From positions 116,942 through 180,941 of the forward strand of contig SMLU01000002.1 in the NCBI GenBank assembly GCA_007859745.1: DNA of 64,000 nt, read 5' to 3'. This stretch comes from Phycisphaerae bacterium RAS1. GTDB lineage: Bacteria; Planctomycetota; Phycisphaerae; UBA1845; Fen-1342. Under the pieces are notes generated by a model. That model worked only from the letters and a program-made list of their open reading frames with translations. It was not told the DNA's origin and searched no databases. The translations under genes were made by a program, and so were the position numbers. This document shows positions 20,732-33,333 of the stretch, in pieces; position 1 is the stretch's first letter; each line of letters opens with the position of its first letter.

Positions 20732-20818
20732 GGAGAGGTGTCCGAGTGGCCTAAGGAGCCGGTCTTGAAAACCGGTTTGCTCGCAAGGGCAACGTGGGTT
20801 CGAATCCCACCCTCTCCG
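20732..20818 (+). tRNA. tRNA-Ser (anticodon UGA)
   Basis: The 87-nt class II tRNA has acceptor stem GGAGAGG (20732-20738) pairing with CCTCTCC (20811-20817), discriminator G, anticodon stem CCGGT/ACCGG with loop CTTGAAA (anticodon TGA), a long variable arm, and T arm 'GTGGGTTCGAATCCCAC'. CCA is not encoded. Its 3' two thirds form the left copy of the element's attachment core, so the tRNA is rebuilt intact on integration. A TATCAT at 20710-20715 could be its -10 box, but no good -35 is visible. Confidence 0.95.
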
Positions 20819-22433
20819 TTCCAAAACCGCTGGAAATCTCTTGTTTCGTAGCGTTTCCTGTGTTGTCTGGTTCCTTCGCTTCGGCTGCGCCTTGTCCGAA
20901 ATAGTCCACCTGTTTCCGATGTTGAACGCAAAAAGTCGTAGCGCTAGACGTAGCGCGGCGCCCTGTGGCTGGACGCTCCAAAGCGCTTTCGGCGCCGGCC
21001 GCGACGGCCTGACGCTCGGCTGCGGACTGCAGGTCCGGCAGGGCGTCCAGGGCGGCGGCGAGGTCTTCATGCAGCACGTGGCTGTAGCGGTCCATGGTCA
21101 ACGTGATGGTCGAGTGGCGCGCGAGGGCCTGGGCAGTCTTCGGGTGGATCCCGCCGTTGGCAAGGTTGGTGATGAACGTGTGGCGCAGGGCGTGGAAATC
21201 GACCACGCGGCCGGCGTCGTCGCGCTTCGCAATCCCCGCGGCGTCGCAATCCTCGCGGAACATGGCGGCGGCGTCCCGGCGGTGTGGGGCAACGTGAAAC
21301 ATCTGGGCGGTCGGTGTGAGCAGTCGTGCGAACTCAGCCAGCCCCGCGGCCGTTTCGGGCCGCATTGGCAAGACGTCTTCGCGGCGGTGCTTGCTGTAAG
21401 CGGCGGCGACGGTCACGGTCGGGCTGGCGCCGGCCAGCTTGAAGCTCGCCCGCGTGAGCGTGCGAAGCTCGTTTGACCGCAGGCCGGTTTCGACGGCGAC
21501 GCGGTAGAGCCAGTAACGAGCCTCGCCGGCCATGCCGTAGCGGTCCGTGGCGGTCCGTGTCGTGTCCAGAAGTCGGCGCAGCTCTGCGGTGCTCAACGGA
21601 CGGCGGTCATTCCTGCGGTCGGTGCGGACGTTGACCCCGTCGACGCTCTCGACCGGGCTTTCAGTCGCGACGCGCGCCCGGATCGCCCAGCGGAAAAACT
21701 GCCGGACGGCGGCAAGGTAGAAATTGCTGGTCTGGGCGCTTTTCCCGCGGACGGTCAGCTTGCCGTCGGCGTCGAATCGGTCGGCGCGCAGCTCGGCAAG
21801 AAAGGCGGCGACGCGTTCCCCGTTCACGTCCGCGGCGTGCTTGGCGTGAATCCCCTCGAACACGCGGCGCGCCCTGGCGGTCACAAGGGCGGCGTGGCGG
21901 GCGGTGGTGCCGCGGGCCAGCAACGCGTCGCGCCAGTCGATGACGTGCTCGGTAAGCGTCCTTGTCGGCGCTTTCGCTGGAACCAGCCTGAGGGCTTCCA
22001 TCCGGCGGCGCAGGCGGTCAGGCAGCCCGTCTGTCCAGCGGATCAGCGTCGCGTCGGTCAGGCGACCGTTGACCTGAACATCCGCGACGACGGCAGTAAT
22101 CAGCTTGGCGGCTTCGTCGCTGGCCCTGGCGTTCGTGAAGAGGGCGACGCGGTGTCGTCGCGCGCCGCTCGGAAACTCCACGTACCAGCGGGCGGATTCC
22201 GCGGTCGCGACGATCTCGCGGCCGGCATGCTTGCCCTTGCGGGTTTGCACGATGCGGGCGCTTCGGAGCCTGCCTTTCGTGTCTCGCCAGTGGGCGAATC
22301 GCTCACTCGGCGCTGCGCTGGCGGCCACCGGGTCAAGCTCCGCGTCGGGCGGCAGCTTGGCGACGGGCATGTAGCGTCGGGCGCGGAGAAGTCTGTACCC
22401 CTTGCGGCTGGGGGCTGATGCGGGTGTTGGCAT
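20751..22433 (-). CDS. int: Tyrosine site-specific integrase (integrated, C-terminally truncated form)
   Basis: 560 residues from ATG 22433 ('aggag' nine bases upstream). N-terminal SAM-like core-binding region ~160-265; catalytic residues Arg319 ('ETGLRSNELRTL'), Lys348 ('YSKHRRED'), His414-x-x-Arg417 ('HALRHTF'), His440 and Tyr450 ('MDRYSHV'). It recombines attP with the tRNA attB. About 110 residues follow the Tyr; the last 23 ('ERVGFEPTLPLRANRFSRPAP' region) are encoded by the antisense of the tRNA, and translation stops at once in host DNA. At the right end of the element the same frame stays open for 170 more codons, so the excised circle should encode a 730-residue protein. Earlier in-frame starts at 22502 and 22547 overlap or abut the terminase end. 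Confidence 0.92.
   Translation of the reverse strand: MPTPASAPSRKGYRLLRARRYMPVAKLPPDAELDPVAASAAPSERFAHWRDTKGRLRSARIVQTRKGKHAGREIVATAESARWYVEFPSGARRHRVALFTNARASDEAAKLITAVVADVQVNGRLTDATLIRWTDGLPDRLRRRMEALRLVPAKAPTRTLTEHVIDWRDALLARGTTARHAALVTARARRVFEGIHAKHAADVNGERVAAFLAELRADRFDADGKLTVRGKSAQTSNFYLAAVRQFFRWAIRARVATESPVESVDGVNVRTDRRNDRRPLSTAELRRLLDTTRTATDRYGMAGEARYWLYRVAVETGLRSNELRTLTRASFKLAGASPTVTVAAAYSKHRREDVLPMRPETAAGLAEFARLLTPTAQMFHVAPHRRDAAAMFREDCDAAGIAKRDDAGRVVDFHALRHTFITNLANGGIHPKTAQALARHSTITLTMDRYSHVLHEDLAAALDALPDLQSAAERQAVAAGAESALERPATGRRATSSATTFCVQHRKQVDYFGQGAAEAKEPDNTGNATKQEISSGFGTERVGFEPTLPLRANRFSRPAP
20755..20820. repeat. attL core (tRNA 3' end)
   Basis: 66 bp identical to 33268-33333. 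It covers the anticodon arm, variable arm, T arm and acceptor 3' strand of tRNA-Ser plus two bases. The integrase reading frame on the minus strand runs through all of it. Confidence 0.93.
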
Positions 22434-22513
22434 GGTGGCGGTCTCCTGCTGCGCCGCACGGGCGGGGTCGCTCTTGAAACGCGGCGCAAGGTCGGGGATC
22501 ATGGGTGCTTCAC

Positions 22514-23803
22514 TCAACGACGGCCGCGCCCCGCGCGGACCACGCAAATCAGGCGGTCAAGCTGGACGTCGACCGTGCACAAGAGCGCCTGCGCCCACGC
22601 GGGCACGATGCCGCGCGGTCCGCCGCGGCGGGCCTTGGCGGTGAATACCTCGGCCTCGGGTCGGGCGACGCGTTGTTCGAACGGCTCCCCGAGCCAGCCA
22701 TTCACGAACGCAGCGAGCGAATCGGGATTCTCCTGCGCCCTCAGAAACGCGGCGGCGCCGGCGGCCCACGTAATCCAGAGCGGGTAGAGCGCTGAAACGT
22801 GCATCGCGACGCGCGTCCCGCTGAGCCAGTCGTCAATGACGACGGCGTTTGTCCCGGCCCGCGCTGCGCGGTCGGCGAAATCCGCGCCAGCGGCGACGGC
22901 CTCGGTTGCCCAGACACCGGCGCGGACGGCGGCGGCTTTCTGGCGGTCGTCGGTGCGGCCCCGGCAGTGCTGGCACTCGTACCACGCGGCGGCCTTTCCG
23001 CTGGCAATGTCGGCGGCGTTGCGGCGGCGGTCCTCGGTGGTCTTTTCCCAGCGGACCTGGGCGAAGACAAGCCGGATGAACCGGGCGCAGTGCGGGCAGG
23101 GCACGTGATAGAAAAGCTTGATTTCGCAGTCGTCATAGAGGTTCGCGACATATCCAACGCGCGTGGTCGGCGTGCTGTTGGCGATGACCTTCGAATGGCG
23201 GTAGGTCTGCGTCCGCAGCCGGGCCAGCTCGATCGGCGACGCTTCCCCGGCCCAGTCGCTGTACTTGTCCACTTCGTCCAGAATCACGACGCGCATCGGG
23301 TCGGAAGCGAGCGATGCGGCTGAGCCTGACCAGCCGAGCCGGATGCTTCCGCCGTTGCTGAGCTGGATGAATGCGGTCTGCACGTCGCGGGCGGCGGCGG
23401 TCTGGAGCTCGCGCAGGATGGGCGTGTCCTGAATGAGCGGCTTCACGCGGGTATTCATGATCCGGCGGCCGTCGGTTTCGTTGGGGAGCACGCATAGGAT
23501 CGGGTCCGCTTCTCGCTCCAGTAGATAGCCGATGACGTTCCGAAGTGCCTCGGACGCGCCGACCTGGGCGGCCTTCATGATGACCAGCTCGCGCACGTGC
23601 GGCGCCGCGGCCAGGTCCATGATCCCGGCCAGGTAGGGCGCGTTGGCGTTGCGCCACGGGCCGGCGGCGTAGCCAGACTGTTTCCGGGACAATCGGCGGT
23701 GACGCTCCGCCCATTGGCTGGGCGTCAGGCGCTCGCGCGGGCGCCACGCGGCGATTTCCGCGGGCGTCCAGTTCGGCGGCTCAGTCGGTGGGGCGGCCGT
23801 CAT
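22514..23803 (-). CDS. Phage terminase large subunit (GpA family), nuclease domain missing
   Basis: 429 residues. It keeps the GpA ATPase: Walker A-like 'MKAAQVGASEALRN' (~76-90), Walker B 'RVVILDEVDKYSDW' (~171-184), a zinc-like 'CPHCARF ... CQHCRG' pair, and the 'TPSQWAERHRRLS' start typical of the family. Family members have ~600-700 residues with a C-terminal RNase-H-like nuclease beginning near 'vDVQ.DRl'. This protein stops ~15 residues after exactly that point ('TVDVQLDRLICVVRAG'), and the integrase starts there. It can probably bind ATP and DNA but not cut concatemers. It overlaps the upstream PLD-like gene by 23 bases. Confidence 0.85.
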   Translation of the reverse strand: MTAAPPTEPPNWTPAEIAAWRPRERLTPSQWAERHRRLSRKQSGYAAGPWRNANAPYLAGIMDLAAAPHVRELVIMKAAQVGASEALRNVIGYLLEREADPILCVLPNETDGRRIMNTRVKPLIQDTPILRELQTAAARDVQTAFIQLSNGGSIRLGWSGSAASLASDPMRVVILDEVDKYSDWAGEASPIELARLRTQTYRHSKVIANSTPTTRVGYVANLYDDCEIKLFYHVPCPHCARFIRLVFAQVRWEKTTEDRRRNAADIASGKAAAWYECQHCRGRTDDRQKAAAVRAGVWATEAVAAGADFADRAARAGTNAVVIDDWLSGTRVAMHVSALYPLWITWAAGAAAFLRAQENPDSLAAFVNGWLGEPFEQRVARPEAEVFTAKARRGGPRGIVPAWAQALLCTVDVQLDRLICVVRAGRGRR

Positions 23804-24482
23804 TGGCGGTGCCTCTCTCGATGACTTCGGCTATCCAACGGCGGTGGAACTCGTACAGGTCCGCGTCGGCGACGATCGCGATTTGCTCCAGGTTGTGGGA
23901 CGATCGGAGATTCCCGCTCATCTCGAAGACGTAGCGGCGGCCGTCGCTGAGCGCGAACCCCAGCAGCTTGGTATGCACGCGGGCGGAGCGGATCGCCTGC
24001 CGGCGGGCCTGCATGCCCTTACTCAGGTGCTCGAAGATTCCGCCGTCCGTCGCGGTCCAGAACTCCGAGCAAATCATCATCGCCCGGCCGATCGCGCCCA
24101 GGTCCAGCAGCGCCAGCAGCTCGTCGGCTACGGCCTGATTCAAGCTCAGCGTGGTCAGCAGCAGCTCATCGACCTTGGCGGGCGCGACGATCGCGATCAT
24201 CGCCGGCACGCAATCCCACGGCCGGAACGTGCCGCTTACGACGATGTGCGCTGCGGTCCCCGGCTCTGGTAGCGGCGTCAAGATCGCGCTGGCGGCGGCA
24301 ATGCGGCGCGCGTCCAGCATCCGGTCGACGCGGTGCGGACGGTCAATCCGGCGGTCCCCGTCCAGCGGGATTTTCGTTCTGGGCTTGTAGCCGGCGGCCG
24401 GCGGCGTCCGGTCGAGGGCGGGGTCCATCGCCAGCAGCTCCCGCAACCCGAATTTTTCGAGTCCCGCCAGCGGGTCACTCAT
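23781..24482 (-). CDS. Phage-associated protein with PLD-like motif
   Basis: 233 residues. The C-terminal half has 'ARVHTKLLGFALSDGRRYVF' followed by 'EMSGNLRSSHNLEQI', which resembles an H-x-K ... G-S-x-N phospholipase-D-type half site. The fold may be a nuclease or a non-catalytic relative, and only one half site is seen. It lies between the small and large terminase genes, overlapping both by a few bases, so a packaging role is possible. Assignment rests on the motif alone. Confidence 0.5.
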   Translation of the reverse strand: MSDPLAGLEKFGLRELLAMDPALDRTPPAAGYKPRTKIPLDGDRRIDRPHRVDRMLDARRIAAASAILTPLPEPGTAAHIVVSGTFRPWDCVPAMIAIVAPAKVDELLLTTLSLNQAVADELLALLDLGAIGRAMMICSEFWTATDGGIFEHLSKGMQARRQAIRSARVHTKLLGFALSDGRRYVFEMSGNLRSSHNLEQIAIVADADLYEFHRRWIAEVIERGTANDGRPTD

Positions 24483-25113
24483 GGTGCTGCATCCCTTCCA
24501 TGAACGCGGCGCGGGCGAAGTCCACCTGGGCGGTTACAGCGCGCTCAATGTCGGTCGGATCAGTCAACCCGGCGACGGCGGCCACGATGGCGCGGCTGAT
24601 GTCATCGAGCGCGCGATTGACCGCACGGGCACGGCCGGCCCATTCGGCGAGCACGGTCTGACGGCGCATGTACTGACCCGAGAGAATTGCAGTCTCCAGC
24701 TCGATTTTCACGCGGCGGGCGACGATGTGCTGTAGTCGGGCTATTCGCTCCGCGCCCATCCCTGCGAATGCGGCTCCCAGATCGGGCTGGATCGCCGCGG
24801 CGGCGTCCCCGTTTTCAGCGGTGGGCTGCTCCTGGGTCGGGTCGCGCGCGTCGGATTCAGCAGCGGGCGGCGGTGGCGTCGTCGTCGGGCTTCCCTGTCC
24901 GGCGTCGATCGGCGGCGGGAGCGTCCGGCTGCGCCACGCCCTGACCTCGCGGATGCTCCACCCGTCGGCGGGCATCGCGGGCCATGGCCACGCGGGGTGG
25001 CGGCGCCATTTTCGAAAGGCTTTCTCGGTGACGCCGAGCGCGCGGGCGACGGCCCGTCCGGAATCGGTCCGATCGCTGGCGGCGGGCGACTCTGGCGGGG
25101 CGGTGACGGTCAT
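24475..25113 (-). CDS. Candidate small terminase subunit / DNA-binding packaging protein
   Basis: 212 residues. The N-terminus looks like a helix-turn-helix ('GRAVARALGVTEKAFRKWRR', then 'GWSIREVRAWRSRT'), as in Nu1-type small terminases. A Pro/Ala linker and a helical C-terminal half follow ('RIARLQHIVARRVKIELETA') that could oligomerise. Position just upstream of the large terminase fits that role. No family-level motif makes this certain. It overlaps the next gene by eight bases. Confidence 0.55.
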   Translation of the reverse strand: MTVTAPPESPAASDRTDSGRAVARALGVTEKAFRKWRRHPAWPWPAMPADGWSIREVRAWRSRTLPPPIDAGQGSPTTTPPPPAAESDARDPTQEQPTAENGDAAAAIQPDLGAAFAGMGAERIARLQHIVARRVKIELETAILSGQYMRRQTVLAEWAGRARAVNRALDDISRAIVAAVAGLTDPTDIERAVTAQVDFARAAFMEGMQHHE

Positions 25114-25192
25114 CTGTGGCTCAATTCAGACGCTGCGGACCAGTCCGCGGCCCGTGCGGACCCATGATCCTCAAGACTGAAAGCGCTCGACC

Positions 25193-25239
25193 GGTTCGAA
25201 AAAAAACCTGAACCATGGGTCCCCCTCGAAAGGGACCCA
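25193..25239 (-). terminator. Possible hairpin terminator inside the element operon
   Basis: On the minus strand a GGGTCCC/GGGACCC stem (25,217-25,239) is followed, after ten bases, by a run of eight T residues (complement of the A-run at ~25,199-25,206). It lies in the only sizeable gap (25,114-25,294) of the element operon. The T-tract is further from the stem than usual, so it may only attenuate. Confidence 0.4.
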
Positions 25240-25294
25240 AAGGCCCAGCGGCGCGACTGGCGGTCGCGACAGCGGGCGGCTAGGCGCGTCACGC

Positions 25295-26002
25295 TCACGA
25301 CGCGGACAGAATCGAATCGACCGCGGCCTGGGCGTCCCGACGGTCCTCGATCGCCCTGCGTGCGACGGCTTCGTCGACGGCTTTCCGCTCTGCCTCCCGC
25401 CTGTCGTACTCTGCGGCGCGAGCGCGGCGTCCCTCTTCAATCTCAGCGGCGGCCTTTTCATCTTCCGCCTTGCGACGGGCGGCTTGGGCCTCGTCGATCT
25501 CGCGTTGTCGTGCGGCCCTGGCGTCGGAATCGGCGCGCTCCTGCTCCATGCGGCGGCGGTTGCTGCATACGTCGCGCTCTAGGATCGCGATTGACTCATC
25601 CGAAATAAGCCCATGAACCCGCAAGCCGGTCCAGAGGATCGTCGCCAAACGGCGGCGCCACGTGCGCGTAATAAGCATCGGAAGCGCGGGGGCGGGGAGA
25701 CCCTTCTCCGTGTGTTCTTCGCAGGCGTCGCGCTGCGCGCTGCGCTCCGCGTCACGAATGGCCTGAATCACACATTGTGGCAGGCGGGCGTCGTGCCATA
25801 CTTCGCTTGACAGAACTGATCCAGGTCGAAACAACGTGAACAACCCGGCGTCATACAGCGCCATCAGCTCGCCTTCGTCATAGACGCGGATTGGCAGCGG
25901 TTCCGGTGTGGGCTGGGACTCGGCGGCGGCGGGCGGCTGCTCTTGCGGCAGCACAGGTGCAAGCTGATGGTTGGCAAGCTCGGCTTCGGTGACAACTGGC
26001 AT
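25295..26002 (-). CDS. Hypothetical phage-element protein with C-terminal coiled coil
   Basis: 235 residues from ATG 26002, preceded by 'gaggag'. The N-terminal half is mixed ('LPIRVYDEGELMALYDAGLF'); the last ~80 residues are a strongly charged Ala/Arg/Glu/Lys coiled coil ('ARRKAEDEKAAAEIEEGRRA'). It lies 40 bases after the S49 protease gene, where lambda-like phages keep decoration or scaffold proteins. No family was recognised. Confidence 0.6.
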   Translation of the reverse strand: MPVVTEAELANHQLAPVLPQEQPPAAAESQPTPEPLPIRVYDEGELMALYDAGLFTLFRPGSVLSSEVWHDARLPQCVIQAIRDAERSAQRDACEEHTEKGLPAPALPMLITRTWRRRLATILWTGLRVHGLISDESIAILERDVCSNRRRMEQERADSDARAARQREIDEAQAARRKAEDEKAAAEIEEGRRARAAEYDRREAERKAVDEAVARRAIEDRRDAQAAVDSILSAS

Positions 26003-26042
26003 TGCGGGTGTCTCCTCTTTTTTAGTGGCTGCGGCAGCCCTT

Positions 26043-27326
26043 TCACTTCGACGCGATTGCGAAAAGCTGGTCGTCGGTGAAGTTGGCATTCGCTGGATGG
26101 GCACGCAAAGCACGGAACCGCAGGAGGCGGCCGGTTGGTGTGTGGCAGACGCTGGAAGCGGCATCCCCGCGGAGCTGGTTCGGGTTCTTTTCCTCGGCCT
26201 GGCGGATGGCTGATTTCAGCTGCTCGCGTCCGACATTGGTACTCATTGGCGGCGTCTCCGTTGTTGCGGTTGACCCGCCGGCGGCGGGGGAACATCCCCC
26301 GTCGACCGGCGGTTGAGGACGAACGTCTGGAAGATAGGTGCGTCCGCCGCTGCACTGAGCCTCTTCGCGGCGGCTGAGCGGCGGGCGGCGGCGGGCTGGT
26401 GTTTCGATTGTTGCAGTGGGCGCCAGCACCTGGACGGGCGCAGCGGCGGCGGGCTGGTGCGCTGGCCACTGAGCGCGGGGCGCGGGAAGAAAATTCGTGG
26501 CGGCCGTGACGACCGCGGCGGTTTCTGCGGCGAGCACCTGGTCAAGCGTCCCAAGGCTGTCGACCAATTTCAGGCGGAGCGCTTCGCGGCCCGACCATGC
26601 CCCGCCGCTCATCACGGCGGCGGTTTCGCGGTCAGACAGCTTCCGGCCGCGCTGCACGGCTTCGCGGAACTGGTCCGCGATCTCGCCTACTTCGCGCTGC
26701 AGGTGCTCGAGCTGCTCGGGCGTGACTTCGGCGCCGATCACGCCGACAGCTTTCAGCGGCCCGCTTGCCAGCGCGTGAACCTCGACACCCATTCCGGAGT
26801 ACATGGCGGAGTAATCGGCGATCGCCCACAGCACCCCGATCGAGCCTACCCGCGCGTCCTGTTCGGCGACGATCTGCGACGCGCCCGACGCGACGTAGTA
26901 GGCGGCGCTGCACAGATTCCCGCCGCTGTGCACCGTGAGCGGCTTCACCACCGCGGCGGCGGCGACCTTGGCACAGCCCGTCACCGGCCCGCCGGCGGAG
27001 TCGATCGACAGCACGATCCGCCTTACGTCAGTGGCACCTGCGGCGCGGGCGAGCATGGAAAGTAGCTCATCCTGGCTGAACTGAGCCAGCCCCAGCAGCG
27101 CGGCCCACGGATCGACCACGCGGACCATCTCGCCGGCGGCGCGGATCAGCGCTACCCCGCTCTCGATGCTCATGTCAATGCACTCGCCTGCGGCGTCGTG
27201 CATGGCCTCGGCGGTCGGCTGCGTCGGCAGGCGGAGCGAGCGCGCGACGATTTCCCGATGGGCGTTGAATGCGGCGGGTTCCAGCGCCCACATGCGCTCG
27301 GCGGGTGCTCGTGCTCTTGTTCGCAT
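26043..27326 (-). CDS. S49 family (SppA/phage head-maturation) serine peptidase
   Basis: 427 residues from ATG 27326 ('ggag' seven bases upstream). It shows 'RRIVLSIDSAGGPVTGC', 'TVHSGGNLCSAAYYVASGA' with Ser140 as nucleophile, 'GSIGVLWAIAD', and 'ALASGPLKAVG' with Lys192 as the likely general base. The 52-residue spacing matches Ser147/Lys199 of Bacillus SppA. In phages such proteases cut the scaffold or prohead; here no portal or capsid gene is found next to it. The last ~150 residues are low-complexity Pro/Ala-rich and end in 'FTDDQLFAIASK'. Confidence 0.8.
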   Translation of the reverse strand: MRTRARAPAERMWALEPAAFNAHREIVARSLRLPTQPTAEAMHDAAGECIDMSIESGVALIRAAGEMVRVVDPWAALLGLAQFSQDELLSMLARAAGATDVRRIVLSIDSAGGPVTGCAKVAAAAVVKPLTVHSGGNLCSAAYYVASGASQIVAEQDARVGSIGVLWAIADYSAMYSGMGVEVHALASGPLKAVGVIGAEVTPEQLEHLQREVGEIADQFREAVQRGRKLSDRETAAVMSGGAWSGREALRLKLVDSLGTLDQVLAAETAAVVTAATNFLPAPRAQWPAHQPAAAAPVQVLAPTATIETPARRRPPLSRREEAQCSGGRTYLPDVRPQPPVDGGCSPAAGGSTATTETPPMSTNVGREQLKSAIRQAEEKNPNQLRGDAASSVCHTPTGRLLRFRALRAHPANANFTDDQLFAIASK

Positions 27327-27367
27327 TGCATCTCCAATTCGCGTGGCGGCGCGGTGCGTCTTGATCC

Positions 27368-28918
27368 TCACAACACGCCAAAAAACCGTATCGGAATGAA
27401 GTTGTGCGGGCCGCTCTCGGGCGTGTACTGGTCCGGGCGCAGCGTGCTGCCGCGCTGCTCGCGCATCATCGCTTCGTTGCTTTCACGGATGCGGCGCAAC
27501 TCCTGCAGCTCAGCGCCGCTGATGACGCTGCGGGGTCTCACATCCCCAATAGCACTGGCCGCGATGCTGCCAATGGCGCTGACTGCGGCGTCCATTCCCA
27601 ATTCAGTGGTGGGCTTGCCGCCGCCGGCGAACTCCCATGCCATTTGTTCGCCAAACTCCGGCCCGCCGAATCGGCGCGCGATCTGGACCCGCGTCCGACG
27701 ATCCCAGCGGCGCCAAGCGTTCATTCCGTTTTTTTCGTTGGCGCCCTCCATCGCGGCGAGCGCTGCCTGATAGTTCGCCTCGGCTTCCGCGAGTCGTTGC
27801 TCTTCGGATACGGCGCGACTTTGGACGGCGGCTTGGCGTGCGCGCTCGGCGACCGTGATTGGATCTCTGGATGATACTTCCGCGGCCCGCAGCGGCCTTC
27901 CGCCGGCGGCCTGGGCTTCGATTCCGGCCGCGGTCGTCAGCACCTGCGGATATTGTCTGACCAGCGTTGCAACATCCGCGTCGCGCAGCAGCTCCTCATA
28001 CGCTCCCGGTGCAAACGCCTGCAGTCCCGCCAGCCCCTGCAGCACCGGCTGACCGCCGAAAGTCCGCGTGACGGCGTCCCGCGGCGCGTGCTTGCCCGCT
28101 CCGCGCGGCACCTGGATGGTGGTCCCGCCCTGCAGCGCCCCGAGCAGTTTCAGCATGGCGCCCTGGGCGCGCTTGTCCTTGGTGAATCCGGCGGCGCCGC
28201 TGAGCGCCAGCGCCTCGGCGGTGCCGATGCCCTGCGGTGCGGCGGCCGGGCCCAGCGCGGCGATGCGGGCAAGGATTTCCTCGGGGCGGTCGCCCGCGGC
28301 GGCGCTGGCGGCCAGCACCTGGCTCACGAATTGCTCTTCGCTCACCCCCTGCGCCATGCCGCTGTCGCGAAAGTCGGCCAGCATCTCCATCATCTGCGCC
28401 CCGGGCGCGCCGGCGGAGGCCTGAGCGCGCGCAAAGGGCGTCACGTCCAGCTTCTTGCGGGTGGCGGTCTCGGCCAGCAGCGCCGCGGCCCCCGGCTCGA
28501 AACCGTAGCGGCTGCGCAGCTCATCCCGCAGCCCGCGGGCGGCGGTCGATCCGCTCGGGCTGCCGCCCGCGCCCGCCAGCCGCAGCGTGTCCTGGTACAT
28601 CTGCGCGACCCGCGCCGCGGCGCCGGCGGCGTTCTGTTCGGCTTCCTGCAGGGCGCGGTTAAAGAGCGCCATACCGCCGGCCAGCATGGCGCCCGGCGCC
28701 AGCAGGCTGGCGACTTGGCCGAACATCGACGACAGCCCGCCGACGCTGCGCTTGCCCTTGCCGCCGGTTTCCTCCAGCTCGCGGCCCAGCGCTTTCACCT
28801 GCTGGTTCATCTGCTTCATGGCCTGCTCGTTGTCTTTGAGCTTGGCCAGCAGCGACGCATACTCGCGGATGCTGTTGCCCATGTCGGCGTCGAATTTGAG
28901 GGTTATGTCACTGGCCAT
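27368..28918 (-). CDS. Phage-like structural protein, tape-measure-like
   Basis: 516 residues from ATG 28918 ('ggag' eight bases upstream). An N-terminal coiled coil ('LLAKLKDNEQAMKQMNQQVK') leads to a hydrophobic Gly/Ala segment ('MFGQVASLLAPGAMLAGGMA') and a long Ala-rich helical body. This layout is usual for tail tape-measure or scaffold-type proteins, but it is short for a tape measure and no other tail gene is nearby. The identification is by composition only. Confidence 0.45.
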   Translation of the reverse strand: MASDITLKFDADMGNSIREYASLLAKLKDNEQAMKQMNQQVKALGRELEETGGKGKRSVGGLSSMFGQVASLLAPGAMLAGGMALFNRALQEAEQNAAGAAARVAQMYQDTLRLAGAGGSPSGSTAARGLRDELRSRYGFEPGAAALLAETATRKKLDVTPFARAQASAGAPGAQMMEMLADFRDSGMAQGVSEEQFVSQVLAASAAAGDRPEEILARIAALGPAAAPQGIGTAEALALSGAAGFTKDKRAQGAMLKLLGALQGGTTIQVPRGAGKHAPRDAVTRTFGGQPVLQGLAGLQAFAPGAYEELLRDADVATLVRQYPQVLTTAAGIEAQAAGGRPLRAAEVSSRDPITVAERARQAAVQSRAVSEEQRLAEAEANYQAALAAMEGANEKNGMNAWRRWDRRTRVQIARRFGGPEFGEQMAWEFAGGGKPTTELGMDAAVSAIGSIAASAIGDVRPRSVISGAELQELRRIRESNEAMMREQRGSTLRPDQYTPESGPHNFIPIRFFGVL

Positions 28919-29450
28919 TCGGGTTTCTCCTCGTACAGTCAAGCACCTCTCGGCGTAGCTCTTCGGCGTCCTGCTTTTCAAACCATCCCAGCGCAAGCAT
29001 CCCCTGGACCATGGCGCGCGTCACAACCCGGCCGCTGGTGTCGGTCGGATCGGTGCGGCATCTGCGATTGATCGCGGACACCAGTACGGCCGGCAGCGTC
29101 TCGGGCCAGCCATAGATCAGCGCGCGGTCGGAAACCACGTCCACTTTTCCGAGAAATGCTAGCTCTACCAGCTGATCAAGAAAACAAGACAGGTCGGCCC
29201 CCGAAAACAGCAGCAGGTCGAAGCGCTGCAGCTCGTTTCGAGCGGCGGCGGCAGCCTCGACGGCGATACACGCGTCGGCCTGCCGTTTGGCGACCTGGGC
29301 GATGGCGGCGAGCACGTCGATTTCGTTCGCGTCCGGAAAATCCTCGTGAAACTGGCGGATGACGCGCTCACTCGCTTCTACGATTCGCTGGGCCAGCGCG
29401 TCAGAAAGCGGGCTGCGTGGCGCGGCGGCTGGGGGGGCGGTGCTGCTCAT
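28908..29450 (-). CDS. Hypothetical protein of the element
   Basis: 180 residues, not recognised. Mostly helical; contains 'NEIDVLAAIAQVAKRQADAC' and 'GRVVTRAMVQGMLALGWFEK'. It overlaps the replication loader gene by four bases (ATGA) upstream and the next gene by eleven bases, so it belongs to the same operon. Confidence 0.6.
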   Translation of the reverse strand: MSSTAPPAAAPRSPLSDALAQRIVEASERVIRQFHEDFPDANEIDVLAAIAQVAKRQADACIAVEAAAAARNELQRFDLLLFSGADLSCFLDQLVELAFLGKVDVVSDRALIYGWPETLPAVLVSAINRRCRTDPTDTSGRVVTRAMVQGMLALGWFEKQDAEELRREVLDCTRRNPNGQ

Positions 29451-30181
29451 GAGGCGGCGCCTTTCTGCCTCGCATCGGACGGCGCGGCTTCATCGGCGTC
29501 CGGCTCGGCGTCTTCCGTCGGCGGCTGAACCTCGTCGCGGAAACTCGGCCACGACTCGAAGGGGATCAGTCCGCCGCTGCCGCGGGCGCGATCGAAGAGC
29601 TGCGGAGACAGCGCCTCGATCAGGTCCGAGCGGGCGCAATTCAGGGCGATGATCGTTCGGCTGCCGGCGGCGTGGCGTTTCTCGAGCAACCAGTAGAACC
29701 GCGGCCAAAAGCGGTCCGACTGCTCGGCCATGGTGAATTCGTCAAGCGCGAGTACGTGATACGCGGACCAGCGGGCGAGCCAGCCTTTCGGGTCGCGGGC
29801 GGCGAGTGCGGCGCGACATTCGTCCAACAGCGACAGCGGATCGATCAGCCTGGCGGGACGGCCTGCCTCGATCGTGCTCAGAACGGCGACGCTCAAAGCC
29901 TGCGTCTTGCCCGTTCCCGGCGGCCCGAAGAGAACCTGCGTCCCGTTTCCGCGATCGACAAATTCGCGCACGCGGGCGATGGTGCGGGCGTAGGGTCCGC
30001 GCGGCTCGCTGATGGTCAGATTGCCCCAGGCGCTGCGGTAACGATGGGCGGCGGGGACGCCGCTGTCTGCCAGTCGCTCCGCGGTGCGGCGAGCGGTGAT
30101 ACGGGCCTCGGCGGCGCAGCATGGGCAAACGTCGGCGGTGCAAACCTCTCGGCACGTGCGGCAACGGCGGTCACCGGTCAT
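29447..30181 (-). CDS. DnaC/IstB-like AAA+ ATPase, probable helicase loader
   Basis: 244 residues from ATG 30181. An N-terminal Cys-rich ribbon ('CRTCREVCTADVCPCC') is followed by AAA+ motifs 'LFGPPGTGKTQAL' (Walker A, ~84-96) and 'YHVLALDEFTM' (Walker B), then 'RTIIALNCARSDLIEALSP' (sensor 1/arginine-finger region). This is the DnaC-type loader pattern. Together with the overlapping winged-helix gene it makes a lambda O/P-like replication module. Confidence 0.75.
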   Translation of the reverse strand: MTGDRRCRTCREVCTADVCPCCAAEARITARRTAERLADSGVPAAHRYRSAWGNLTISEPRGPYARTIARVREFVDRGNGTQVLFGPPGTGKTQALSVAVLSTIEAGRPARLIDPLSLLDECRAALAARDPKGWLARWSAYHVLALDEFTMAEQSDRFWPRFYWLLEKRHAAGSRTIIALNCARSDLIEALSPQLFDRARGSGGLIPFESWPSFRDEVQPPTEDAEPDADEAAPSDARQKGAAS

Positions 30182-31095
30182 ACGCAAACCTCCAGCGCGG
30201 CCGCCTTGTGACGTGTCCCTTTCGGCAGTGGACTGAAGCGTGTAATTGCTGATTTCCGGTCGGTGGCTGAACGCGCGCGGCGCTGCGGGCGGACGCCGCG
30301 CCGTTCGAGCTCGCGACGCAGCCACGCGGCTGGGTTTCTGACTTTGGCTCGCTGCCGAACGTAATTTGCCAACCCTTTCAACAATCCGTTCCGCGTGCGA
30401 TCAGCCGGCTTGTGGCGTGTGAGCGCGTCGGCGAAGCTAGAGTCGACGCCGCAGAGGTCGCGCGCCAGCTCGACCGCGACGCAGAGAGGCACCATCTGGA
30501 GCGGGACGCCAGGCGGCAGTCCTCGGACGACGTCCGACGCGCGGAGCGCAGCGAGCCGCGCGAGCTCGCGCCAGTCCTCAGTGCCAGGCTCCCAGTCGGC
30601 AGCGTCGGCAGCGCCCCTCCTCTCCGCCGAGATATGCAGCGCCGGTTCTACATGCGCTGGATGCGCTGCTGGATAGGCTGACATACGGTCCGGGTTGGCG
30701 GACCGTGGGTCCGGGTTGGCGGACCGTGGGTCCGGGTCTGGGTGGCGCGCGCTGTCCCTGGCCGGCCAGCGCCGCGCGATGAAGTCGACTCCGGAGCCAA
30801 TTTCAGCGGCGACGCGCGTCAGCTCAATCTCGTTTGCGGCGGTGCGCGGCCCGCGGTTCGGCGCGCGGTGGACTGTGATTTCGCCGGCCGCGGCGAGTCG
30901 CGCGAGTATCCGCCGAACTGCTCTATCGGTGAGCCTCGTTTGGCGCGCGATCGTGGGGACGCTCATCCACGTTCTGCAGAAGTTCGCGGCGGCTGGGTCA
31001 TCCCCCGCGACATCGCTCAACAGGCACAGGACGGCCTGCTCGCCGTGCGTGCTCGCCGGCCGGCCGTAGACCGCGTTCAGACACGTGACGCTCAT
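30178..31095 (-). CDS. Winged-helix replication initiator-like protein with internal iterons
   Basis: 305 residues from ATG 31095. The N-terminal ~90 residues form a winged helix-turn-helix ('MSVPTIARQTRLTDRAVRRI') like phage O-type or RepA-type initiators. A central tandem 'PDPRSAN' repeat is encoded by 21-bp palindromic DNA repeats (30,687-30,737). The C-terminal half has 'FADALTRHKPADRTRNGLLK' and a basic tail. It overlaps the AlpA-like gene and the loader gene by four bases each. A role in starting element replication at a self-contained origin is inferred. Confidence 0.65.
   Translation of the reverse strand: MSVTCLNAVYGRPASTHGEQAVLCLLSDVAGDDPAAANFCRTWMSVPTIARQTRLTDRAVRRILARLAAAGEITVHRAPNRGPRTAANEIELTRVAAEIGSGVDFIARRWPARDSARHPDPDPRSANPDPRSANPDRMSAYPAAHPAHVEPALHISAERRGAADAADWEPGTEDWRELARLAALRASDVVRGLPPGVPLQMVPLCVAVELARDLCGVDSSFADALTRHKPADRTRNGLLKGLANYVRQRAKVRNPAAWLRRELERRGVRPQRRARSATDRKSAITRFSPLPKGTRHKAAALEVCV
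30687..30737. repeat. Iteron-like 21-bp palindromic tandem repeats
   Basis: Two full copies (30687-30707 and 30708-30728) and a partial third. Each contains GGTCCG ... CGGACC, a dyad around a 'ggttgg' centre. They lie inside the initiator gene, as lambda ori lies inside O. A single related 'cggtccgggttggcgg' site is at ~32,851. Confidence 0.7.
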
Positions 31096-31346
31096 TCGGC
31101 GTTGCGCTCCCAGCAGTCCGGCCGCGGGCAGCCGTCCGCGACCCACTGCTCCAACTCCGCGCGTCGCCAGCGCGGATCACCTCCACCGATACGGATCGGC
31201 GCTGGAATCACGCCCTGGCTGAGTTTGCCATAAAAGGACGTTTTTTTAAGCCCCAGGAGCGCCGCGGCCTCGGCGGCCCGCAGCAACAAAGGCTGGGGCG
31301 GCTGTACGTCGGCGGTGGCGGCGGGCGCGGCGTTCTTCATGTGCAC
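31092..31346 (-). CDS. AlpA/excisionase-like DNA-binding protein
   Basis: 84 residues. It has the MerR/AlpA-type winged helix: 'LLLRAAEAAALLGLKKTSFY', 'GVIPAPIRIGGGDPRWRRAE' and 'LEQWVADG'. Such proteins direct excision or activate integrase expression. It overlaps the genes on both sides (4 and 10 bases). Confidence 0.8.
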   Translation of the reverse strand: MHMKNAAPAATADVQPPQPLLLRAAEAAALLGLKKTSFYGKLSQGVIPAPIRIGGGDPRWRRAELEQWVADGCPRPDCWERNAE

Positions 31347-31531
31347 GCCTGCGGGGTCTCGCGGGCGCGCCGAAGCAGAATTTCCCGCAAGAGCGCGATG
31401 TCAAAGAGAATGGCGCCGTCGGCGTCAAGGTGGGGAAGGCGCCCGGCCTTTGCTTCGCGTTCGAGCCAGGCCCGCGGAACGCGGAGCCGACGCGCGGCGA
31501 TCGTCAAGGGGAGCGGAGTCGGCGGTTTCAT
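31337..31531 (-). CDS. Second small excisionase-like helix-turn-helix protein
   Basis: 64 residues: 'LPLTIAARRLRVPRAWLERE' then 'AGRLPHLDADGAILFDIALL', the helix-turn-helix plus wing of excisionase-type proteins. Two such genes in tandem may split Xis and regulator roles (inference). Confidence 0.65.
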   Translation of the reverse strand: MKPPTPLPLTIAARRLRVPRAWLEREAKAGRLPHLDADGAILFDIALLREILLRRARETPQACT

Positions 31532-31561
31532 TTGCCGAAACGTAGCGTCTGGTGTGTGGCG

Positions 31562-32632
31562 CTACCTGTGGCTCTGTCGTGGTATTTCACGCGGCGCGAG
31601 GCGGTGCATTCCCTTGCGCTCGGATCGAATTACGACGACGCCCCACGCGGGGTGTTGTTGACGGCTACGGTCGATAGTGAGGCGGAACACGTGGTCAAGT
31701 CGCGTATTGTCTGTGTCGTTTCCTAGAATTTCAAGAATCTCCGCGTCCTGGCAATCTGGCGTCCCGACATTGAACCGCTGGTGCATGAACTGAATCGCGG
31801 ACGCTTGGCGTGGCGTGAATTGGTAGGCTGTGCCTCGGAATCTCACGCTTCTGTACATCGAGTCGATCGCGTCGAACGGATCGGCGGCGCGGGTGCTTTC
31901 GTCGGTGTCTATTGAACTTCCCGGCTTGGCAGTGGCGCGAATCCCATCGTCAGTCAGCTCGACGATGCGGCGCTTCGCTGGGCGGCGTGGGTTGTCCGCA
32001 CGGTGGTAGAGGACGACGTCGACCGGATCGTCATCTACGAAAATGGCGTGGCGCCTGCTACGGAGCGCGTCGCTGTCGTCATCGAGGGGTTTGGCGGTGA
32101 CGATTTTCCCGTTGGGCATCACCCATTCGCCTAGGTTGTGCGGCAGGACTGCGCGGTTGTCGAGAAGTCGCGTCATTCGCTGACGTGGCCTGGTCGTCAG
32201 GCGCCGTCCTCGCGGGCGGCTGCTTCCCGCGGGTGGTGCAGGGTCGATGCGAAATGCGGTGTACTCCGGGTCAAGCGGATCGCTGCGGACGATTCGGATT
32301 TCGGCTTCCCCGTAGCAGCCCGGCGTCGTGTCCCGGATCAGCTTGTGAAACTCCAGCTCCCCCATGAACTCGCTGACCTCGCGCAGCAGCCCCAGCGCGA
32401 TCAAACGTTTCATCGTGGCGGCGCACCGGTCCGCGCTCATCCCGACGGCGCGGGCGGCGGTGCGTAGCAGTCGCTCATCAATGGCGCCAATCGGCTCGGC
32501 GGGCTTTCCGGCCCGGTTCGTGAACCGGCCGAACTGGACCCCGTCGATCAGGCGCAGCAGCTCTGATTCGTCGGCGGAAAGCTCGAACTCCGGGGCGTTC
32601 GGACGCGCGGCGGCGTGCGTGCTGCTCGGCAT
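31562..32632 (-). CDS. Hypothetical first gene of the element operon
   Basis: 356 residues, not recognised. The N-terminal third has a helix-turn-helix look ('AARAVGMSADRCAATMKRLI', 'LGLLREVSEFMG'). A C-terminal segment 'YQFTPRQASAIQFMHQRFNV' may be a second DNA-binding or recruitment helix. It starts 121 bases after the predicted stop of the full-length integrase in the circular form, behind an operator-like inverted repeat. A regulator or replication role is possible. Confidence 0.6.
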   Translation of the reverse strand: MPSSTHAAARPNAPEFELSADESELLRLIDGVQFGRFTNRAGKPAEPIGAIDERLLRTAARAVGMSADRCAATMKRLIALGLLREVSEFMGELEFHKLIRDTTPGCYGEAEIRIVRSDPLDPEYTAFRIDPAPPAGSSRPRGRRLTTRPRQRMTRLLDNRAVLPHNLGEWVMPNGKIVTAKPLDDDSDALRSRRHAIFVDDDPVDVVLYHRADNPRRPAKRRIVELTDDGIRATAKPGSSIDTDESTRAADPFDAIDSMYRSVRFRGTAYQFTPRQASAIQFMHQRFNVGTPDCQDAEILEILGNDTDNTRLDHVFRLTIDRSRQQHPAWGVVVIRSERKGMHRLAPREIPRQSHR

Positions 32633-32635
32633 GTT

Positions 32636-32687
32636 CCAACATCCTTGTTGCGGGCGGGCCGCGGTCCGCGCCGCGTGGGGATGTTGG
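32636..32687. promoter_or_regulatory. Operator-like inverted repeat upstream of the element operon
   Basis: CCAACATCC (32636-32644) and GGATGTTGG (32679-32687) are exact complements 34 bases apart. The first covers part of the ribosome binding region ('aagga') of the gene starting at 32632. In the predicted circle this is the only stretch without a gene, so the main promoter and its control should be here. Confidence 0.45.
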
Positions 32688-32834
32688 TTTCCACGCGAGC
32701 ACGGACGGCGTGAGGGCGTCGGCTGGCCGGCCTTCGCCTACCCGAGTCGAATTCTACCGCGTCCGTCTCCGCGCCGCGTTCCCCGAACGGCGTTCGGGGG
32801 GTGAACCGGGTTCGGTGTTGGCGTCGCTCCCGTC

Positions 32835-32923
32835 CCGAACCCCTGACCCACGGTCCGGGTTGGCGGCGGCGCCGCGTCTGTCGTGGCGGCTCCGAACCCC
32901 TGACCTACGTTCCGTGTTTCGCG
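32835..32923. repeat. Direct repeats near attR, possible integrase arm sites
   Basis: Two imperfect copies (~32,835-32,866 and ~32,892-32,923) share 'ccgaacccctgacc', with related 3' halves, 57 bases apart. They sit ~350-430 bases from the att core, as arm-type integrase sites often do. Function is not shown. Confidence 0.4.
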
Positions 32924-33267
32924 GCGCTGCCCCTGAGCTGATCTCCTGGGAGCGTGGTTCCGTGGCGCGGCGAGCGTTGGCGGCCGCGGACGCCCGTGTC
33001 CCGGCAGCACGGACACCCGTGTCCGCTGTCGGCATTGTCGCGACGGCGGTCCTGACCAAGGCGAGCACGCCGGCGCGGATCGCCGGCGGGAGCATGGTCC
33101 AGGCGGCGGCGACTTCGGCCAGCTCGGGCGGCTGCGGTTTGTCGCTTTCCCGGAAAACGGGAAAGGCGGGGTTGCGCTCCGCGGGCGGCGGCTGCTGGCG
33201 GTCCCGGTCAGCAGAGTCGTAGCGCTGGTCGTAGCGCGTGTCGTTTGGTGCTTGTTTTTCAGGGGTC

Positions 33268-33333
33268 GGAGCCGGTCTTGAAAACCGGTTTGCTCGCAAG
33301 GGCAACGTGGGTTCGAATCCCACCCTCTCCGTT
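33268..33333. repeat. attR core
   Basis: The 66-bp duplicate of the tRNA-Ser 3' part. The 5' 23 bases of the tRNA, including the acceptor strand and D arm start, are missing here, so this is an attachment site and not a second tRNA gene. Confidence 0.93.

Follow-up and report, generated by a model that had tools for sequence, protein, structure and literature searches.

In phage lambda, the coding sequence of int does not include attP. In some bacterial phages, the 3′ end of int overlaps the att core and integration can alter the last residues of the integrase; to our knowledge, no phage of this kind has a conserved C-terminal domain lying beyond attP. In the archaeal SSV-type "suicidal" integrases (SSV1/SSV2, pTN3, and pT26-2), the target is a tRNA and attP forms part of the integrase gene, which integration splits and excision restores (PMC8371274). 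These proteins belong to Phage_integr_3 (PF16795), the part cut off is a short N-terminal piece, and the remaining catalytic fragment is inactive in vitro; according to a 2021 review, recombinases disrupting their own gene are confined to archaea (PMC8371274). In mycobacteriophage BPs, attP is located in the repressor gene, and integration yields a C-terminally shorter product that has lost an ssrA-like degradation tag (PMC4557955).

The planctomycete elements studied here have in common with the SSV type an attP inside the integrase gene, a tRNA target, and a gene split by integration. They differ in losing a C-terminal accessory hairpin with the catalytic part left whole, whereas the SSV-type genes lose an N-terminal piece, and in being lambda-type enzymes of bacterial hosts (PF00589, with apparent arm sites) rather than PF16795 proteins of archaea. 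As in BPs, an attP within a gene results in a C-terminally shorter product (from 730 to 560 residues in our case), but the split gene encodes the integrase instead of the repressor, and where BPs sheds an ssrA-like tag, these elements shed a hairpin that is conserved and predicted to fold. The closest solved structure is that of lambda Int (1z1b), and apparent arm-type sites are found on both sides of the core as in lambda; unlike in lambda, the inferred attP is wholly inside the integrase gene and the protein has an extra tail of ~100 residues. In the literature that we could search, most subscription journals being beyond reach, bacterial integrases of this kind were not described.

Our starting point was a 64,000-nucleotide stretch of the genome of Phycisphaerae bacterium RAS1 (hereafter, the window), in which an exact 66-bp direct repeat bounds a 12.5-kb phage-derived element. 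The repeat corresponds to the 3′ part of tRNA-Ser. Its left copy (20755–20820) is located within both the integrase frame and an intact tRNA-Ser(TGA) gene (20732–20818, plus strand; ARAGORN and Rfam RF00005, 59 bits), which is the integration target and antisense to the integrase, while the right copy (33268–33333) is a displaced tRNA fragment. The chromosomal tyrosine integrase (20751–22433, minus strand; PF00589, E = 2e-13; phrog_1, E = 1.5e-37) is 560 residues long, and its translation contains the catalytic R, K, HALRH, RH, and RY. As the left core sits in the intact tRNA-Ser(TGA) gene, the GTERVGFEPTLPLRANRFSRPA residues represent translated antisense tRNA. The frame stops at 20751, four bases beyond the left core; at the right end of the element, the same phase (core spacing 12,513 = 3 × 4,171) is open to 32754. 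Computed joining of the element ends gives a single frame of 768 codons from a TTG at 22547, or a protein of 730 residues from the likely ATG start at 22433, which is preceded by AGGAG. An earlier sequence-only reading of the window had claimed this geometry, that is, an integrase entering the left core and ending four bases past it, a right core in the same phase followed by 170 open codons, a gene of 730 residues in the circle against 560 after integration, and all catalytic residues placed before the cut, and we could reproduce each of these points, the junction being a computed one. The tRNA-Ser identity of the core was not part of that reading.

A frame open for 170 codons is in itself little evidence, because DNA of 67% GC is full of chance ORFs; it is the comparison with relatives that shows the predicted extension (32754–33267, minus strand), cut off on integration and rejoined in frame in the circle, to be real. 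Using the 170-residue extension as the query against 41 related genomes, we obtained repeated matches to one stretch, approximately residues 45 to 75. This stretch is a helical hairpin, PELAEVAAAWTMLPPAIRAGVLALVRTAV (33036–33128, minus strand), recovered in alignments A1 and A6 as well as in the search of the phylum and predicted by AlphaFold2 to fold with a pLDDT of ~98. Three further copies of the motif are found in the source genome, each near an integrase or a tRNA target, and the genome contains four related elements in total. A 15-sequence profile placed the motif in 69 of 294 Planctomycetota genomes, at ~125 places, whereas a control phylum gave no match in 199 genomes; the related loci come mostly from Planctomycetota or Phycisphaerae. 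Nearly all motif places are within ORFs of 30 to 270 codons, short and located at the element end opposite the integrase. Among the large motif ORFs, L086, L090, L095, and L098 were considered as uncut chromosomal integrase genes, and none of them is an integrase. The hairpin carries an invariant W, and no known family in Pfam or PHROG fits it; a Foldseek search with it gave no meaningful match.

The stop codon follows 0 to 24 residues past the hairpin in 94 of the 97 motif ORFs. The ~93 residues after the hairpin in the window (32754–33035, minus strand), an atypical basic tail, are the longest outlier of this set and fall outside the predicted fold. Only as far as about 33036 does the extension resemble that of the relatives. 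The sequence-only reading had noted protein-like helices and a basic tail in the extension; as a refinement, conservation is limited to the hairpin of ~30 residues and does not cover the 170 residues as a whole.

Could such a peptide be a by-product, encoded only because the arms must adjoin the core and the antisense tRNA happens to be open? In favor of this, the linker varies in sequence and contains the apparent arm sites, and the last 93 residues in the window appear nonfunctional. The hairpin itself, however, is conserved across highly diverged integrases and in three phases relative to the tRNA, it is soon followed by a stop in nearly all cases, and the ratio pN/pS was approximately 0.4 to 0.8 in 21 of the 23 close pairs listed. 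We consider a peptide without a role very unlikely.

The stranded ORF could also be a small gene of its own, adjoining the att site by chance; every chromosomal copy sampled has it physically apart from the integrase. We assembled 27 loci in which the motif ORF is accompanied by a same-strand integrase, with an exact repeat between the two, and rebuilt the circle for each, the reading frame not being used in the selection. The integrase, the core, and the hairpin were fused in frame in 26 of the 27 pairs: 25 were scored directly, and L081 is in frame once the true core is substituted for an arm repeat. The out-of-frame exception, L102, has a 1-bp deletion not shared by its sister L101, to which it is 98% identical. 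With a chance of one-third per pair, the probability of such a count is ~1e-11, and allowing for skewed phases, ~5e-6; the loci are related and the values serve only as a guide. All three codon phases are used (26:7:3), and the elements target tmRNA (L014 and L076) as well as tRNAs in either orientation. Means for independent translation were, moreover, mostly missing: 20 of 25 extensions, with that of the window among those lacking any start codon from core to motif, have no ATG in this interval, and only one combines a start codon with a Shine–Dalgarno-like site. Together with a phage in which the hairpin is contiguous with the integrase (see below), these data already contradict the separate-gene explanation, to which we assign almost no weight.

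The tail was ignored in a second sample of 40 loci, chosen by similarity to the integrase alone and containing 44 integrase ORFs. There, an in-frame extension of 41 to 90 codons was seen at 17 loci for which a tRNA-like core could be assigned (L192, L196–L199, L204, L206–L208, L210, L212–L215, L218, L222, and L223). Ten of these tails are the hairpin or a weaker version of it, and five are of a second type, LSPAQAAVVAWL; as some families carry this other tail, the hairpin is not universal. In five loci, a repeat was present without a long extension, and 22 of the 44 integrase ORFs had no repeat that we could find within ~19 kb, from which we infer that decay or longer elements are common.

The sequence-only reading had suggested searching for the joined gene as a continuous protein, and an uncut form was indeed found in a phage. 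Degenerate DNA patterns of the hairpin identified two overlapping IMG/VR contigs, L143 and L144, sharing 26.3 kb of identical sequence and carrying terminase and head-morphogenesis genes. A 498-residue ORF in them encodes the integrase, a tRNA-like core (AACGGAGGGAGTGGGATTCGAACC), the hairpin, and the stop without interruption, and matching paired repeats are placed inside the same ORF, one 135 bp ahead of the core and the other 38 bp beyond it. Approximately 80 strong chromosomal relatives align to the 498-residue protein only up to residues 380 to 456, and none continues into the hairpin. As read from the contigs, the uncut copy is a phage genome not integrated at that core and not a proven circle. 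We also asked whether the two contigs represent a single circle cut at different positions, and rejected this, as they extend on opposite sides and have no end repeats. The uncut gene is known from this one phage only: scans of viral contigs with single integrases gave no confirmed relative, alignments A1 and A2 were too divergent to yield search patterns, and no relatives were found among deposited phages and plasmids.

Two outcomes had been named that would refute the idea of a long integrase being swapped for a short one: junctions putting the halves out of frame, and free phages whose gene ends before the core. The first is not met in 26 of 27 pairs, and the sole phage-borne relative crosses the core to the conserved tail. 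The swap is supported by at least 26 further planctomycete elements in addition to the uncut phage copy, its functional effect being undemonstrated. At the level of sequence comparison, we regard the architecture, its conservation, and the uncut copy as established, and equally that the integrase gene loses a conserved C-terminal domain on integration while its catalytic part is kept whole.

Matching repeats of 11 to 31 bp are present on both sides of the core in 35 of 39 elements, including that of the window, often as tandem pairs of ~10-bp sites. They are mostly found 80 to 170 bp before and 30 to 75 bp after the core, and their sequence is specific to the element. In the window, the probable P-arm sites are a paired ~10-bp repeat in integrase codons (20934–20957), 113 bp from the core, and the probable P′-arm sites are inside the extension (33215–33238), 29 bp from the core; the two are identical at 22 of 24 bases. 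The repeats look like arm sites, although we have no data on integrase binding. Given that the apparent arms flank the core within the gene, the whole attP is inside the integrase gene. As a refinement of the sequence-only reading, it may be noted that a complete attP with apparent arm sites crosses the att site together with the hairpin.

The integrases of the window and L144 meet the criteria for tyrosine recombinases: both match PF00589, and the R, K, R, and Y columns are invariant in alignment A2 or A5. PF16795 (Phage_integr_3) was absent from both. The predicted structure of the L144 integrase has three strands and a helix at residues 8 to 58, and its best match in the PDB is full-length lambda Int (1z1b); the N-terminal sheet and helix and the match to lambda Int fit a role in arm binding, as far as a model can indicate. 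Having this N-terminal domain and apparent arm-type sites to either side of the core, the enzymes conform to lambda-type heterobivalent integrases as judged from sequence and model. In the full-length integrase model, the tail is disordered, and the hairpin is at the end of this disordered linker. The hairpin was modeled separately from the integrase, because tail and integrase rows combined in one alignment (A4) misplaced the tails.

On this basis, we propose a gene with a complete attP near its 3′ end, which would produce a long integrase in the circle and a short one after integration, the hairpin serving the integration step; we consider this explanation probable. In the free circle, the whole gene would encode a long integrase with arm-binding, core-binding, and catalytic domains, followed by a disordered linker, which the att core encodes in part, and then by the helical hairpin. 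Integration at the tRNA would cut the gene at the core, and the chromosome would then encode a short integrase having all catalytic residues and ending in a few host-encoded residues, with the hairpin codons stranded at the opposite end and lacking a start codon; the long gene would be restored by excision. As only the joined gene is predicted to yield a translated hairpin, the hairpin could be under selection only in the free state, most likely at the integration step. We infer that the hairpin may hold the Int–attP complex together or contact a partner, that its loss may make integration self-terminating and one-way, and that the short form may be kept for excision, perhaps with an AlpA/Xis-type factor. 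A candidate directionality factor in the window is an AlpA/excisionase-type HTH protein (31092–31346, minus strand; PF05930, 26 bits; PF12728, 31 bits), which scored 26.3 bits against TIGR01764, slightly under the cut-off. A built-in directionality switch is the likeliest meaning of the hairpin loss, although this is an inference without functional data.

The short form might alternatively be inactive, as in the archaeal integrases with attP in the gene, whose fragments do not function in vitro (PMC8371274); the hairpin would then be needed for all recombination, and the element would be stuck until a related element supplied an intact integrase. In its favor, genomes harbor several related elements at once, the source genome four. 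Nevertheless, nothing catalytic, core-binding, or arm-binding is missing from the short form, the lost portion is small and sits on a disordered linker, and the element of the window retains its excisionase-type gene; we see this lock as a real but rather unlikely possibility. We consider it less likely still that the tail is a degradation signal that would make the long integrase short-lived after infection and leave the lysogen with a stable short form. The BPs repressor sheds an ssrA-like tag upon integration in that manner (PMC4557955), but the tail here is predicted to fold as a hairpin, carries an invariant W, and does not look like a short degron, and its terminal residues vary freely between elements.

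Our preferred explanation, the loss of a hairpin serving integration, can be carried further. Bacterial self-trimming integrases may exist across the phylum, the long form integrating and the hairpin-less short form, with a Xis-type factor, only excising, so that the enzyme, a complete attP, and directionality would form a compact module movable between phages and targets; we offer this only tentatively, as it falls somewhat short of an even chance. The system described here is bacterial and widespread and shares the principle of self-disruption in another layout, with the enzyme trimmed and not destroyed. It offers a simple answer to the question of a one-way integrase, and the pair of long and short forms is directly testable; self-limiting integrases are also potentially useful for one-way genome insertion. 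The combination of hairpin, core, and arms provides a sequence marker for exact mapping of element ends in Planctomycetota, and the architecture accounts for many of the orphan ORFs that run across tRNAs in genomes of this phylum.

The element in the window looks defective. Its terminase large subunit (gpA; 22514–23803, minus strand; PF05876, E = 6e-61), directly upstream of the integrase, is cut off inside the nuclease domain, the match to PF20454 covering only positions 4 to 97 of 294, and no capsid genes were recognized in the element. The other phage-type genes, all on the minus strand, are a terminase small subunit (24475–25113; phrog_57, E = 2e-9), an S49-type head maturation protease (26043–27371; PF01343, E = 3e-34; phrog_53), and a DnaC-like helicase loader with a replication initiation protein (29447–31146; phrog_50, phrog_270, and phrog_391).

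The sole out-of-frame pair of integrase and hairpin motif was found at locus L102, where the stretch between the att core and the motif (L102:9050 region, gene orientation) is one base shorter than in the sister locus L101. This single-base loss is a natural frameshift of the proposed switch. A second type of tail was observed past the core at five loci (L196, L199, L206, L210 and L218), reading LSPAQAAVVAWLVSTPEG and likewise in frame in the circle; it looks unrelated to the hairpin tail.

At three loci, a second motif ORF begins right at the end of the integrase ORF and in a different frame (L105:12648-12960, L123:11205-11577 and L139:2238-2565), which suggests tandem elements with one att site in common. 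If tandem elements do share the site, the phase would decide whether a chimeric integrase arises. At least four motif ORFs were also seen within approximately 30 kb of a single chromosome (L091 and L092; G145:C1:2378000-2411500), and these may be the remains of decayed elements or a stacked set of them, arranged as an array. Many contigs stop a few hundred bases or less from a motif ORF (G039:C88, G039:C87, G025:C13, G037:C358, L145 and L229), a pattern that breaks in assembly at att sites would produce.

Within the window element, the terminase large-subunit gene (22514-23803) ends inside its own nuclease domain, immediately beside the integrase start, and no portal or capsid gene was recognized; the element thus has the appearance of a satellite or of a prophage that is defective. 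Its first gene (31562-32632) adjoins the cut-off integrase tail and encodes a 356-residue product for which no family was recognized.

One motif match comes from a record titled Alphaproteobacteria (L136, JANQQE010000011.1). Its placement is nearly the same as that of a match in G031, a relative of the window source from the same order, and the title may therefore be wrong.

The same hairpin motif (23 bits) forms the C-terminal end of a large non-integrase ORF that is primase-like (L090:12267-13710, plus strand), and the hairpin may thus be a wider interaction module. The hairpin (AWPxLPxAIRAG) is also similar to a catalytic stretch of the integrases themselves, PWPRLFHNLRAS, onto which MAFFT placed it in an alignment containing both tails and integrases (A4, columns 401-430); the likeness may reflect chance or mimicry.
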